Of a stretch of DNA of 64,000 nt, positions 27,505 to 35,001 are shown piece by piece. The notes below the pieces were generated by a model. The model made no database searches and had not been told where the DNA came from. It saw only the letters and a program-made list of their open reading frames with translations. Every line of letters begins with the position of its first letter. Within the stretch, counting starts at the first letter, position 1. The DNA comes from Arsukibacterium sp. UBA5043 (GTDB taxonomy: Bacteria; Pseudomonadota; Gammaproteobacteria; Enterobacterales; Alteromonadaceae), in NCBI GenBank assembly GCA_002415085.1, contig DIBV01000013.1, positions 186,874 through 250,873 of the forward strand, given 5' to 3'. The position numbers and the translations under genes were made by a program.

Positions 27505-28341
27505 TTATTGCAGGGTGAAGTTGTCTGACACTAAAGCCTGTTTGGCAAAGCGGCTGATGCCGGCCTTGTTGTGGTGATCTAGTGTTTGTACACCAAAGGC
27601 TGTCAGATCGCGCTCTATTTCTTTAAAGGCTCCAAGTAAATTCTTGTCGTTGCGGCAAGGAGCTTGTAATGGCAACAAAATATTGTCTTTTTGCAGTACA
27701 TTGTGGTTTACCAAACGCCGGAACCGGCCAAGCCATTGCTCGGCGTGATCAAATAAACGAATAGCCGTTTGCTGGCGAAAGGCGAGTGGCCTGATCACGA
27801 AAACGTCGTTGGTTTTCGCCACCAGCGGCAGAGTAAATTCAGCAAATTTGTCGTGAATTTTCTGCTGCTTAAAATGCGTAAGTTTTTCATCTCTTAACTG
27901 CTGACGGATTACCTTAACCATCAGGCTTTCCTGATACTCTTCGGTAATGAAGGTACGATGCACCAGGCGCTCAAATAACTGCTCAATAACAGCTGCAGGT
28001 TTTTGTTCCAGATATAAAGAGCGCAGCTCTGAGTAGCGCACCAGCGTTTCTCTTGGCCGAACTACTTCCTGCATCTGCTGTGCTAGCTCTTTTGGTGTAA
28101 GACGTGTTACATAGGTTTGTAACCGCTGCAACTCTTGCTCTACCGTTTGCAGCGTCGCTTTGTAAAGTTTGCCTTCAAGATCTTCAAAAAACTCGGTAAC
28201 GCGGGCAAAGCGGCCAGGTGCCAGTCGAAAATCGAATAAACCTAATTCAGGAGCGCACAGTACTATGCCGACGTTAGCAAACTCGCCCGTCTCAACATGC
28301 GGTAAAAACCGTACAATTGCATACTGATAAAGTGTTTTCAT
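27505..28341 (-). CDS. DUF3037 protein, partner of HipA-like kinase
   Basis: A 278-residue protein beginning MKTLYQYAIVRFLPHVETGEFANVGIVL, the hallmark of DUF3037. The rest is largely helical. Its ATG overlaps the stop of the upstream HipA-like gene (ATGA), and GGAGGT lies 6 bases upstream within that gene, so the two are translationally coupled. HipA-like and DUF3037 genes are a recurrent pair in bacterial genomes, with no demonstrated function known to me. Confidence 0.8.
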   Translation of the reverse strand: MKTLYQYAIVRFLPHVETGEFANVGIVLCAPELGLFDFRLAPGRFARVTEFFEDLEGKLYKATLQTVEQELQRLQTYVTRLTPKELAQQMQEVVRPRETLVRYSELRSLYLEQKPAAVIEQLFERLVHRTFITEEYQESLMVKVIRQQLRDEKLTHFKQQKIHDKFAEFTLPLVAKTNDVFVIRPLAFRQQTAIRLFDHAEQWLGRFRRLVNHNVLQKDNILLPLQAPCRNDKNLLGAFKEIERDLTAFGVQTLDHHNKAGISRFAKQALVSDNFTLQ

Positions 28342-29057
28342 ATCAGTACCTCCCAAAATTCATCGCTGTTAAACAAAGATAGTACGTCGTTTATTTCTGC
28401 CAGATGTCCCGGCGCTTCTTCCAACCATGCGGCCGGTAAAGTCGCAGCATACTGGGCAAGCCCTTGCAACGCAATCGCTAGTTTCGCGCTGTAATGCGTG
28501 CGCCAAAGCGCATCATGTTGATCACTGAACCAGACATTGTAAGCTAAGTGGACATTCGCATTACTATTAAAATTATAGCTGCTGTCAAACGCAAGGTTAT
28601 GGTCCAGCACCACATATTGATTGGAGGCCGGCTGGTAAAATAAGTTCGGGTTGCCGCCGTTTTCGGTCATGGTGCGGTCTTCATTTCTAATCCAGTAATC
28701 AAACAGAAAAAGATCACGGGCGTAATGGGCTGGCATGTTAAGCACACTTGTAGGTGTTACTTCTAGCAAGTCAGGTATCAGTTCTGAAGCAAATACCATG
28801 CTATCACTTGCGCCTAAAACACGGCTGGCCGCTTCGTCAAAGCGCAGTATAGCTTGTGGCAAGAAAGCGCAGCAATGCGGTGGCAAACTTAACTGTAAAG
28901 CTCTACCCAGAAATGCACAAACTGCTTCATTGATCAGACCTTTAGTCCCAGCCTGTGGTCCCTTTATGTAATAACGCTTGTCGTCAGATAAACGACATAA
29001 ATAGGGTTCAGTTCTACCCTGACTGGCTTTTTGCTGAATTTCGATCACTTCAAGCAC
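28338..29057 (-). CDS. HipA-like protein kinase (short form)
   Basis: A 239-residue HipA-type kinase core, about half the length of HipA. Lys32 in YYIKGP is the likely ATP lysine, DLFLFDYWIRNEDRTMTENG (residues 115-134) is the catalytic-loop region with Asp120/Asp127, and LDHNLAFD (151-158) is the metal-binding segment. The N-terminal subdomain of HipA and any HipB-like DNA-binding gene are missing. GTG 29057 has GGAGGG 5 bases upstream. It is coupled to the DUF3037 gene, which may replace HipB as partner; that is inference. Confidence 0.8.
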   Translation of the reverse strand: MLEVIEIQQKASQGRTEPYLCRLSDDKRYYIKGPQAGTKGLINEAVCAFLGRALQLSLPPHCCAFLPQAILRFDEAASRVLGASDSMVFASELIPDLLEVTPTSVLNMPAHYARDLFLFDYWIRNEDRTMTENGGNPNLFYQPASNQYVVLDHNLAFDSSYNFNSNANVHLAYNVWFSDQHDALWRTHYSAKLAIALQGLAQYAATLPAAWLEEAPGHLAEINDVLSLFNSDEFWEVLI

Positions 29058-31258: not shown

Positions 31259-31771
31259 ATGTGGACTATTGCAGTTGCCTCGGCCAACCCGGCCAAAATT
31301 AATGCGGTGAAACAGTGTTTTCAAAGCAACTTTCCCAAGCAGGCTTTTACGGTAACTGGCTTTGCGGTGGCCTCGGGTGTGGCAGAGCAGCCGCTAACCA
31401 GTGCTGAAACCTTGCTGGGTGCGCAGAACCGCTTACAGGCGCTGAAACTGCAAACCGCTGCTGATTATTATGTGGCGATAGAAGCCGGCCTGGATATTGA
31501 TATGACCTTTGCCTGGATGCTGATTGAGCACAAAGGCAAGCTTGGCAAGGCGCGTTCGGCCAGCCTGATGTTGCCCCCGGCAGCGCTGCATCTGCTGGCA
31601 GAGGGCGTGCAGCTGGGCGATGCGATGGACCAACTATTTGGCACTACTAACATTAAACAAGTCGGCGGCGCTATTGGCTTGCTTACCCATAACCAGTTAA
31701 GTCGGGCCAGGGTGTATCAGCAAGCGCTAAGCCTGGCGCTGATCCCGTTTTTAAACCCAGAGCGCTTTTAA
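31259..31771 (+). CDS. yjjX: Inosine/xanthosine triphosphatase YjjX
   Basis: Hydrolyses ITP and XTP to keep damaged purine nucleotides out of nucleic acids. It has 170 residues. Family features are VASANPAKINAVKQCF at the N-terminus, SGVAEQPLTSAETLLGAQNR, IEAGLD and the C-terminal SRARVYQQALSLALIPFLN. It converges on the next gene with the two stops overlapping (TTAA at 31768-31771). Confidence 0.92.
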   Translation: MWTIAVASANPAKINAVKQCFQSNFPKQAFTVTGFAVASGVAEQPLTSAETLLGAQNRLQALKLQTAADYYVAIEAGLDIDMTFAWMLIEHKGKLGKARSASLMLPPAALHLLAEGVQLGDAMDQLFGTTNIKQVGGAIGLLTHNQLSRARVYQQALSLALIPFLNPERF

Positions 31772-32649
31772 ACTGCTACCGGTTCAGGCTGGCTGTGATC
31801 TGCCAGGCGGCGTTTTTCCAGATAAGCGTACAGCTGTTCGGTAAAAAAACCGTGCATTAAAAAGCGCTGGCCTAAATTCCAGGGCCCGACCAAATAATGC
31901 GGGTATTTGTTGTAGGCCATTTCGGCCAGTTTTGGCTCGCCCACTAAGTCGCCAATCCGGATAGCGATAGACTGGTCCAGATTAAAACCATTAATGGCAT
32001 CGCGGTATTGCTCGCGGGTTAGCAGTAAACAGAATAAACACATAAACAGGGCATGGGCACTTTCAAAATCGAGCCATTGGCTGCGTTTTTCTGTTAGCTG
32101 AAACTGTTCCATAGCAACCGGTTGCCAGTGCTGCCAGTTAAGTTCCTCCGTTTTTAGCGGCTCTGTCGGATGGTGCCAGCTGCCCAGCTCAGCGAATAAG
32201 CGGAACAGCTCCTGATCATGCTCGACAAAGCTGGCCTGCTGCATCTCGCTTATGCTTTTTGGATACAGGTTTACCGGCGTAAAGTCGCCAGCCGGGCTGT
32301 TCGCCGCCAGAAAATTTAATACATTGGACTCAGTGGCATAGTGGCGCAGGATCAGTAAATTCGCTTCCCTGCTGACAAAGTGAGTGCAGAACCAGCAAAT
32401 TAGTTTTTGTAAGCTGGTGTGGGCGCTAAATTGTGGCAATGGCAGTCGTTTAAAAAACCAGACAATATGCAGCAAAATCGCAAAAATAAACTGCAGCAAT
32501 GGCCGTACACCCCAGCGTAACGGATTTTGTAAATCTTTTGACCAGAGATCCAGCGCCGCTTGCTCAATGGGTAGCGAGTTATCATTAGCGATGGCTTTTA
32601 AAAAGGCACTTGGCTCAGCGTTACTTTTACTGCTGTCATTAATACTCAT
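31768..32649 (-). CDS. Uncharacterised protein, last gene of KAS III/diiron operon
   Basis: A 293-residue protein with one hydrophobic stretch around residues 50-70 (LLQFIFAILLHIVWFF) and a helical remainder rich in Trp and His (SWHHPTEP, NKYPHYLVGPWNLGQRFL). I recall this as DUF6999, but not with certainty; no catalytic motif is evident. Its start overlaps the end of the diiron gene by 11 bases, so it belongs to the four-gene operon. It may anchor or assist the pathway at the membrane. Confidence 0.6.
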   Translation of the reverse strand: MSINDSSKSNAEPSAFLKAIANDNSLPIEQAALDLWSKDLQNPLRWGVRPLLQFIFAILLHIVWFFKRLPLPQFSAHTSLQKLICWFCTHFVSREANLLILRHYATESNVLNFLAANSPAGDFTPVNLYPKSISEMQQASFVEHDQELFRLFAELGSWHHPTEPLKTEELNWQHWQPVAMEQFQLTEKRSQWLDFESAHALFMCLFCLLLTREQYRDAINGFNLDQSIAIRIGDLVGEPKLAEMAYNKYPHYLVGPWNLGQRFLMHGFFTEQLYAYLEKRRLADHSQPEPVAV

Positions 32650-33325
32650 GATCCACTTCTTCTAGTTGTAGGCAATACAGCCTGGCGGTAACCCGGGCGG
32701 TGCGAACTATTGCCGCAAGTTGCGCTGGGCTTTGACACAGCCGGTCGAGCAGCTGATACAATTTTTGCAGATGATCATCATCATTAGCGCCATGATAGCG
32801 CATAAAACGGGTAAAACTTCCATCACCGCCGGTGGCTTTGTCTATCTGAGCTGCCCAGTCGCGGGCCATTTTCTGGCCGAGGCCCTCAATAATCCACATC
32901 GCGCCGACTAAATCGACCGGGTTGCTCTGGCTGGCCCGGTACATTAAAAAACCATGTAACGCTTCGGTACCAATATTGCGCACTGCGTTTTGAATATCCG
33001 CCAATTTTCCGCCCGCGGCAACATAGTCTTGCTCCAGCATTTCATAATCACGGTGCTCTTCGCGGGCGTGGCCGATAATGACCGAGCGCACATCGCTGTA
33101 GTCGCGGTCAAAGCTGGAGGCGCAGCGGCTGATCCAGCGCGAGCCTTCAATCACCTGCTGACGCCAGTTTAGTAGCAGCTGACAATAATCAGCTTTGCTG
33201 AACTGGCCCCGATCTAAGCGCTGCAACAGCGGTACCCGACCGAGCTGGCGTTCAAACTCAAACCACACCCGCATTAGCGCCTGTAAACATTGTTGGCCCT
33301 GCGGGCTTAATACTTGCTCAGTCAT
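32639..33325 (-). CDS. Heme-oxygenase-like diiron oxidase (HDO, TENA-like)
   Basis: A 228-residue helical protein of the iron-containing redox enzyme family. Candidate metal ligands follow the HDO pattern: Glu60 (VIEGSRW), Glu90/His91 (AREEHRDYEM), Glu147 (IIEGLGQ), and His178, Asp182-184, His185 (YHGANDDDH). Characterised relatives such as UndA and BesC use O2 to cleave or decarboxylate fatty or amino acids. The ATG immediately abuts the stop of the ketoacyl synthase (TGAATG). A fatty-acid-derived substrate is inferred from that neighbour. Confidence 0.8.
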   Translation of the reverse strand: MTEQVLSPQGQQCLQALMRVWFEFERQLGRVPLLQRLDRGQFSKADYCQLLLNWRQQVIEGSRWISRCASSFDRDYSDVRSVIIGHAREEHRDYEMLEQDYVAAGGKLADIQNAVRNIGTEALHGFLMYRASQSNPVDLVGAMWIIEGLGQKMARDWAAQIDKATGGDGSFTRFMRYHGANDDDHLQKLYQLLDRLCQSPAQLAAIVRTARVTARLYCLQLEEVDHEY

Positions 33326-34432
33326 TCAGGCTTCCACCACAGTCAGTTGCATATAAGCATTATTAAAGCGGCCACTCTCCGGCACCATACATAAAATGGT
33401 ATCGCCGGTTTTATATTGCTGGGTGCGACGAAACTCGTCCAGCATAATAAAGATAGAGGCGCAGCCGGTATTACCACGCTGATACAGATTGCTGTACCAC
33501 TTATGATCAGCAATACCGACCCCGGCGCGCTGCATCATATCGAAAATTTTACCGCGAAAATAATGTGACGAGTAATGGCACAATACATGGTCGACTTTGT
33601 CTGGTTGCACCCGACCCTCACTGATTAAGCGCAAATAGCCATCGACTCCGAGCTTAACGATATTTTCCAGCAATCGCACATCCTGCCGAATTAGCAGTGC
33701 CCCAGCCGCTTCGGCTTCGGCGTAGGTGGCATAATCCTGCCAGCTGCGTTGCTCACTATTGTCGCCAGGATAGCCCACACTCATACAAACCGGGTAGGCA
33801 TCGGCATGGGAAAAACTGCGGATCCAATCCACCCGGAAACAGCTGCCCCGCGGCTGAGTTTCCAGTAGCAGGGCACCGGCGCCGTCAGACAACATCCAGC
33901 GCAGAAACTCGGCGTTAAAATCCAGCGCGGTACCAGCCGCTTCGTAGCGACTGGCTTTAAATAAACGCGATGTCAGCTCACTGGCTACCACTAAGGCATT
34001 GGTTTGTTCGCCAGCCAGCAAATTGGTATAGGCGGCTTTTAACGCCATCATGCTGCTGGAACAAATGCCATGGCTGCTGTGCAATTCAATATCACTCAGG
34101 CCAAGCTCGGCCTGCAGCATCGAACCAAAACCGGGCAACACCACATCGCCCTGGCTGGTGGCGGCGCTGAGCATTTTTATCTGTCGTTTACCCAGAAAGC
34201 TGCTGCTTAAGCAATGCTCGGCCGCTTTCGCTGCCATGCCGGCATTAGAAATGATGGTGTTATGGTTGGCATCTATAGCGTAGTGGCGGGTTTTAATGCC
34301 GTTTGACTGCAAAATACGCCGCTTTAAACGACTGGGTTTGCCGTGCACTAAACCCAGCAGTGGCTCCATCTGATCATTGCTTATCGGCGGCCCCGGTAAA
34401 AAGTGACCGCTACTGGTAATAAACACGCTCAT
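33326..34432 (-). CDS. Ketoacyl-ACP synthase III family protein
   Basis: A 368-residue thiolase-fold enzyme that condenses acyl units. The triad is present: Cys124 (HGICSSSMMALKAA), His286 (LCHYSSHYF) and Asn321 (RGNTGCAS). The His motif CHYSSH departs from the HQAN of housekeeping FabH, so it belongs to a secondary-metabolite type KAS III such as those acylating or joining fatty chains. ATG 34432 overlaps the upstream stop by four bases (ATGA); the longer frame to 34504 is not supported. A second substrate cannot be deduced. Confidence 0.85.
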   Translation of the reverse strand: MSVFITSSGHFLPGPPISNDQMEPLLGLVHGKPSRLKRRILQSNGIKTRHYAIDANHNTIISNAGMAAKAAEHCLSSSFLGKRQIKMLSAATSQGDVVLPGFGSMLQAELGLSDIELHSSHGICSSSMMALKAAYTNLLAGEQTNALVVASELTSRLFKASRYEAAGTALDFNAEFLRWMLSDGAGALLLETQPRGSCFRVDWIRSFSHADAYPVCMSVGYPGDNSEQRSWQDYATYAEAEAAGALLIRQDVRLLENIVKLGVDGYLRLISEGRVQPDKVDHVLCHYSSHYFRGKIFDMMQRAGVGIADHKWYSNLYQRGNTGCASIFIMLDEFRRTQQYKTGDTILCMVPESGRFNNAYMQLTVVEA

Positions 34433-35001
34433 AGTTTTACCTGCGGATGCTTTAACGCAGTAAATAAACAGCGTAGGTTTTCTTCCAGATACGGCAGCAC
34501 GCAAACTACGGCCATAAAACCCAGATAGTAAGGCAGGTAAGTATCACCGCCATGAGCATAGGGCATTCGTTGCAGGTAAAACTCACCCTGCCAGGCAAAA
34601 CTTATCAGCTTAATAAATACCGGGTAATTAATGACGATGATCAACAACAACATATACATGGGCAAGGTAGCCAGATAGTTATGCGCATGCATTTCCCAGA
34701 CGCTGATATGGCGTTTGGGCGCCGCGTAATGCACGTCGTAATGCGCCACGGCCTCATGTGCCAGCCAGGCAACAATGCAAATCAGCATAATCAGCACATT
34801 AACCTGAAACAGCAGGCATAACAGAATAGGCACTGCCATCTGAATACCCATTAACGAGTGAATAAGCGATTCACGCAGGCCTGAAGTGTATTCAATGCGG
34901 GTTGCGCGGTGGCAGCACCAGTCAATAAAACCGGCAATACCCCACAGCGGTAAAAACACATACAGCATAAGCTGAATTAATAACTGACTGGTTTGCAACA
35001 C
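34429..35001 (-). CDS. Histidine-rich integral membrane protein, first gene of KAS III operon
   Basis: A 190-residue protein with about five membrane helices. Between helices is a His-rich cytoplasmic stretch, LAHEAVAHYDVHYAAPKRHI followed by SVWEMHAHNYL. The spacing recalls membrane diiron hydroxylases and desaturases but lacks a full set of three standard His boxes. I do not recognise a named family with confidence. GTG 35001 has AGGAG 5 bases upstream. It overlaps the ketoacyl synthase gene and leads the operon; a role in modifying or hosting lipid substrates is inferred. Confidence 0.65.
   Translation of the reverse strand: MLQTSQLLIQLMLYVFLPLWGIAGFIDWCCHRATRIEYTSGLRESLIHSLMGIQMAVPILLCLLFQVNVLIMLICIVAWLAHEAVAHYDVHYAAPKRHISVWEMHAHNYLATLPMYMLLLIIVINYPVFIKLISFAWQGEFYLQRMPYAHGGDTYLPYYLGFMAVVCVLPYLEENLRCLFTALKHPQVKL

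Follow-up and report, generated by a model that had tools for sequence, protein, structure and literature searches.

The window analysed here is a stretch of 64,000 nucleotides from Arsukibacterium sp. UBA5043 (contig DIBV01000013.1, positions 186,874 to 250,873; genome of 3.88 Mb). It contains a minus-strand operon of four genes, which encode, in order of transcription, a membrane protein (MEM), a ketosynthase III (KAS), a heme-oxygenase-like diiron oxidase (HDO) and a protein of Pfam family DUF6999. Positions below are those of the window, and protein lengths are in amino acids (aa).

35001-34429, minus strand: MEM, an orphan His-rich membrane protein, 190 aa, at the head of the operon (open reading frame analysis)
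34432-33326, minus strand: KAS, a StlD/DarB-related ketosynthase III, 368 aa from ATG (NF005293, PDB 5gk0, invariant columns)
33325-32639, minus strand: HDO, a heme-oxygenase-fold oxidase, 228 aa (PF14518, structure model)
32649-31768, minus strand: DUF6999 protein, 293 aa, constant partner of the KAS and HDO of this module (PF22523)

MEM and KAS overlap by 4 bp, KAS and HDO adjoin with 0 bp between them, and HDO and DUF6999 overlap by 11 bp. A preliminary description of this DNA had given the same positions and junctions, which are exact to the base. The alignment suggests that MEM may instead start with a TTG at 34998, not with the GTG at 35001. Of 42 fetched loci that contain MEM, 40 retain the 4-bp MEM/KAS overlap (with starts chosen by script).

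As judged by sequence matches, KAS, HDO and DUF6999 are constant neighbors in every locus examined. DUF6999 is present in 21 of 30 genomes of the same genus and is accompanied by adjacent HDO and KAS genes in all 21, so the grouping of these genes is not due to chance. With HDO as the only query, a scan of a genome collection, limited in reach to close relatives, returned 45 loci from organisms that include Rheinheimera, Arsukibacterium, Alkalimonas, Halomonas, Billgrantia and Acidobacteria; the closest named relative of the window HDO is from an Arsukibacterium metagenome-assembled genome (97% identity). KAS is adjacent in all 45 loci (in L070 only its end is present, at a contig edge), and DUF6999 follows in 44/44 loci whose contig does not end first (that of L066 ends inside HDO). 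DUF6999 alone, used as the query, was detected in 9 genomes of a 398-genome phylum sample (which includes the window genome), 3 of 120 genomes of one family and 6 of 240 genomes of another class, these samples overlapping. Fifteen further loci fetched in this way all have KAS and HDO adjacent and in the same order.

Profiles of the HDO and KAS subfamilies, scored across the 398 genomes on the top 5 to 7 candidates of each, pick out the same nine genomes as DUF6999, with scores of 303–353 bits for HDO (next score 98) and 528–612 bits for KAS (next score 405). The three matches lie at adjoining coordinates in these genomes. In Pseudoalteromonas sp. THAF3, all four genes occur in order on an 801-kb replicon. 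Among 14 named control genomes, which were searched for DUF6999, the protein was also detected in Caulobacter vibrioides. KAS-HDO-DUF6999 is thus a widespread, conserved three-protein module, and the window operon is one form of it. Our literature searches returned no paper describing this module, and the enzyme set is apparently undescribed so far. The preliminary description had taken the tight coupling of the four genes to imply a single pathway and had proposed a search for co-occurrence across genomes. The operon is real, and the case for it is stronger than was then realized, since KAS, HDO and DUF6999 homologues do occur together and KAS and HDO are in places fused, in support of a single pathway; of the proposed four-gene set, however, only these three are conserved, and the membrane protein lies outside the core, in one lineage.

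Twelve loci encode KAS and HDO in a single open frame, four from Acidobacteria (L067, L068, L071 and L070, the last without its KAS start owing to the contig edge) and eight from one proteobacterial clade (L072–L077, L084 and L085). The KAS and HDO parts are separated by an unmatched stretch of 24 to 52 residues. On the HDO tree, the fused proteins fall into two groups apart from each other; therefore, the fusion either arose twice or was lost, and the tree forces neither. L069 also has the fused layout, but with two stops inside KAS. Interruptions of single module genes by stops or frame breaks were also seen in HDO (a stop at codon 35 in L041; matches in two pieces in L045 and L008) and in DUF6999 (one stop in L065, one TAG in L018). 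These, like the stops in L069, represent decay or sequencing error.

The window KAS is a relative of the ring-forming StlD/DarB ketosynthases, as indicated by sequence comparison, and is not FabH-like. It matches the NCBIfam StlD/DarB model NF005293 with an E-value of 1.7e-112 and 376 bits, under the cut-off of 450, and aligns with StlD (PDB 5gk0) over query residues 2–366 (E = 8.1e-73), which indicates whole-length kinship. Three other module KASs score 333, 316 and 370 bits with NF005293, whereas five DarB-like KASs taken from elsewhere reach 562–601 bits, above the cut-off. NF053539, the model for DarB proper, fails to separate the two groups: the window KAS (334 bits) and the five DarB-like KASs (448–523 bits) are all under its cut-off of 550. 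A FabH identity was rejected, as the FabH model TIGR00747 gives 73.7 bits against a cut-off of 292. Cys124, His286 and Asn321 are invariant in 26 aligned module KASs, in agreement with the Cys-His-Asn triad read earlier; their catalytic roles are presumed from the FabH motifs. The best PF08541 match in the window genome is a different gene (C13), not the operon KAS.

The 398-genome scan also gave 12 KAS places with lower scores, ten of which were fetched; the five DarB-like KASs scanned against NCBIfam are from this set. In all ten loci, the KAS is accompanied by the same three families: a protein of ∼305 aa, a protein of ∼135 aa and a BtrH_N/DUF4872 protein. In the Azoarcus dar cluster, darA is labeled ‘DAR-aromatase’, darB ‘DAR-cyclase’ and darE ‘BtrH-like’ (PMC3949708). 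By position and by likeness to that cluster, the 305-aa protein is taken here to be probably DarA-like. On a Streptomyces plasmid, a homologue of this protein likewise comes after a KAS that shares 40% identity with the KAS of L072. Queries with the DarA-like, 135-aa and BtrH-like proteins had no match in any module locus. At the genome level, no DarA-like gene was found in 15 of 16 module genomes at an E-value threshold of 0.001, while all four control genomes were positive, one of them being the query's own. The sixteenth genome (G429) carries a DarA-like gene on contig 19 (L109) beside a second, DarB-like KAS, and the module on contig 17 (L073). The DarA-like gene thus goes with DarB-like KASs and HDO with module KASs, a separate partner for each kind of KAS.

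HDO belongs to PF14518. Its structure model is confident and has the heme-oxygenase-like helical fold, with 3dde and CADD as the nearest structures. By alignment, the six canonical ligand positions (E90, D93, E147, H178, D182 and H185) are occupied by metal-capable residues in 27/27 module HDOs. Five of these canonical diiron ligands never vary, whereas the remaining one, the histidine of the E-x2-H motif (position 93), is Asp in all 57 readable module HDOs and His in all 13 outgroup HDOs. The six positions thus hold two histidines and four carboxylates, rather than three of each; the 3-His/3-carboxylate make-up is that of most, but not all, HDOs (PMC13185094). The preliminary description had named a structural model lacking the metal ligands as evidence against its proposal; this did not fully materialize, although one position is altered throughout the group. 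E60 and H86 are further candidate ligands, and H86, which is invariant in the module, might act as the third histidine. Module HDOs form their own clade relative to the 13 outgroup HDOs (support 100/100), in an unrooted tree that carries a long-branch warning.

The last gene matches PF22523 (DUF6999) with an E-value of 1.2e-91 and 307 bits, against a gathering score of 27. Its AlphaFold2 model is all-helical (pLDDT 87), and a comparison of this model with the PDB found no match. Residues invariant across 28 aligned rows include D23, R45, N97, R102, H103, N117, H144, D145, D194, N220, D225, N247, R262, H266 and E271, and the invariant His, Asp, Glu, Arg and Asn residues are spread over several helices of the model.

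The genes around this core vary between lineages. MEM is found in 42 fetched loci, all of the Rheinheimera/Alkalimonas/Halomonas/Pseudoalteromonas type, and in one of 185 genomes of the class, the window genome itself. It contains ten histidines and has hydropathy peaks; an alignment of 12 homologues leaves seven histidines unchanged (H31, H48, H82, H87, H105, H107 and H150). MEM is a lineage-specific accessory that may bind metal. No Pfam family matches it above cut-off; in comparisons with the fatty acid (FA) desaturase (PF00487) and FA hydroxylase (PF04116) of other loci, it gave no Pfam match and an hhalign probability below 1%, with a shallow MEM profile (Neff 1.6) that could miss distant kinship. 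In the eight fused proteobacterial loci, an FA desaturase gene lies upstream in 8/8 and an FA hydroxylase gene in 7/8, as located by tblastn using the proteins of L072. Of these genes, the ones tested in L072, L073, L074, L076 and L077 are confirmed by Pfam, while one frame of L075 has no match. The L072 accessory queries had no match in six loci from another class (L078, L086–L090) and five from Acidobacteria, some of these loci being short. As the accessories vary by lineage, the core consists of KAS, HDO and DUF6999. In L078, an open reading frame of 1133 aa downstream of DUF6999 partly matches an AMP-ligase query, and its start resembles an LplT/Aas-type lysophospholipid transporter and acyltransferase; it is a possible lipid link for the module.

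From these observations we infer, with a probability of about 0.38, that the operon is an O2-dependent lipid-synthesis module in which KAS makes a dione-type lipid and HDO oxidizes it in the place of DarA. DarB and StlD are reported to form 1,3-cyclohexanediones and resorcinols. Because the conserved module contains no gene for an acyl carrier protein (ACP) or ligase, KAS would draw its acyl units from ordinary FA synthesis. By analogy with DarB, it would condense two acyl chains into a 1,3-cyclohexanedione or related diketone, which could be handed directly to the adjacent or fused HDO. With O2, HDO would then remove hydrogens or add oxygen, much as DarA serves DarB, giving a dialkylresorcinol or a more oxidized ring lipid. 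Desaturation by an HDO is known from MboA (PMC13185094). DUF6999 may be required for the same or the next step, and the lineage-variable membrane enzymes (FA desaturase and hydroxylase, or MEM) may tailor the chains at the membrane. A bolder form of this proposal is doubtful: a new route to oxidized ring lipids, in which KAS is physically coupled to an HDO that fills the aromatase role of DarA and acts together with the new-fold DUF6999. The diiron site of this HDO would have shifted from the usual 3-His/3-carboxylate make-up to one of 2-His/4-carboxylate, of the kind seen in ferritin-like oxygenases.

Several points weigh against the dione-oxidation proposal. Its product and cyclization are drawn by analogy with DarB, and aromatization does not require O2. 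The module KASs fall below the StlD/DarB cut-off (316–376 against 450 bits) and branch apart from DarB-like KASs with weak support (59/49), so the KAS reaction may or may not have changed. With Asp at the His position, HDO could bind iron less strongly and, in a comparison of folds, TenA, heme oxygenase and PqqC match HDO as well as UndA does, or better. The 305-aa protein has no Pfam match, its DarA-like label deriving from its position and the Azoarcus cluster and not from a named model. The scheme also leaves DUF6999 and MEM unexplained.

The preliminary description suggested, among other possibilities, an alkene or aldehyde made by oxidative cleavage. In such a route, KAS would make a long β-keto acid or α-alkyl-β-keto acid, which HDO would decarboxylate or cleave to an alkene, ketone or aldehyde in the manner of UndA. 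The UndA likeness of the module HDO is one of fold only; its best structural matches are 3dde and CADD, its nearest relatives by sequence outside the module occupy ligase/SDR operons (SDR, short-chain dehydrogenase/reductase), and the His of E-x2-H is replaced by Asp. The kinship of KAS to StlD/DarB, which the preliminary description overlooked, also speaks against cleavage. This product guess was its weak part and is not supported as it was put; we regard the cleavage route as improbable. A cyclic dione or resorcinol-type product is a better guess by analogy, since KAS is related to enzymes of ring-forming condensation.

An alternative concerns the destination of the product and is compatible with its being an oxidized dione. 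The product could be a structural or protective lipid of the cell envelope, finished in the membrane by the FA hydroxylase, the FA desaturase or MEM, and not a secreted metabolite. The conserved module lacks a transporter, regulator, ACP or ligase, occurs in most same-genus genomes (21/30) and, in one clade, is accompanied by the FA desaturase and hydroxylase genes; its patchy distribution (9/398 genomes of the phylum sample) and its absence from 9/30 same-genus genomes speak against this role, which we consider rather unlikely. HDO could also hydroxylate, epoxidize or desaturate a chain tethered to or released by KAS, giving an oxidized linear lipid, a pyrone or a furanone. HDO chemistry is broad (PMC13185094), and the module KASs score differently from DarB-like KASs. 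However, no direct evidence points to any of these products, and the module contains no ACP, ligase or thioesterase. We consider such a reaction very unlikely.

The module gives DUF6999, a Pfam family to which no function is assigned, a testable setting. The fused KAS-HDO protein, encoded for example at L072:7378-9273, can be made and assayed as a single polypeptide, and the natural His-to-Asp change in HDO is useful for studying how ligands steer O2 chemistry. G429, which holds both the module and a DarA/DarB-like locus, offers a natural internal comparison. In Rheinheimera, Halomonas, Acidobacteria and others, the module may yield a lipid not described before.

Two neighboring features of the window were also noted. 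An inosine/xanthosine triphosphatase gene (31259-31771) is convergent with the operon, the 3′ ends sharing 4 bp. At 27505-29057, a DUF3037 gene overlaps a gene for a HipA-like kinase (PF20613), and the pair is a possible two-gene unit.

Among known systems, the module resembles DarA/DarB, of dialkylresorcinol synthesis, and StlD, of stilbene synthesis, in that its KAS is a whole-length homologue of StlD that keeps Cys, His and Asn, and in that each KAS has its own partner. It differs in the identity of that partner, which is HDO (fused in two lineages) together with DUF6999; the DarA-like queries found no aromatase in the module loci, and DarB beside DarA is the arrangement that marks dialkylresorcinol (dar) clusters. 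With 3dde, CADD, UndA, HrmI and MboA, the module HDO has in common the fold and, out of six canonical ligand residues, five; it is set apart from them by the Asp in E-x2-H, its own clade and its fusion to KAS. UndA, which converts a free fatty acid to a terminal alkene, is a stand-alone decarboxylase that is not known to have a KAS partner. Outside the module, the nearest relatives of HDO that were found are encoded in an operon of T_hemolysin (PF12261), AMP-ligase, HDO, SDR and TPR genes that is common to ten fetched loci (L091–L100); plasmids from Citrobacter (L081), Vibrio (L082) and Pantoea (L083) are listed with these. Our literature search returned no paper on this operon. There, too, HDO lies beside a type of acyl-handling enzyme, and in L092 the AMP-ligase and HDO share one frame. 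The operon nevertheless has a ligase and SDR where the module has KAS and DUF6999, and its HDO retains His at position 93.

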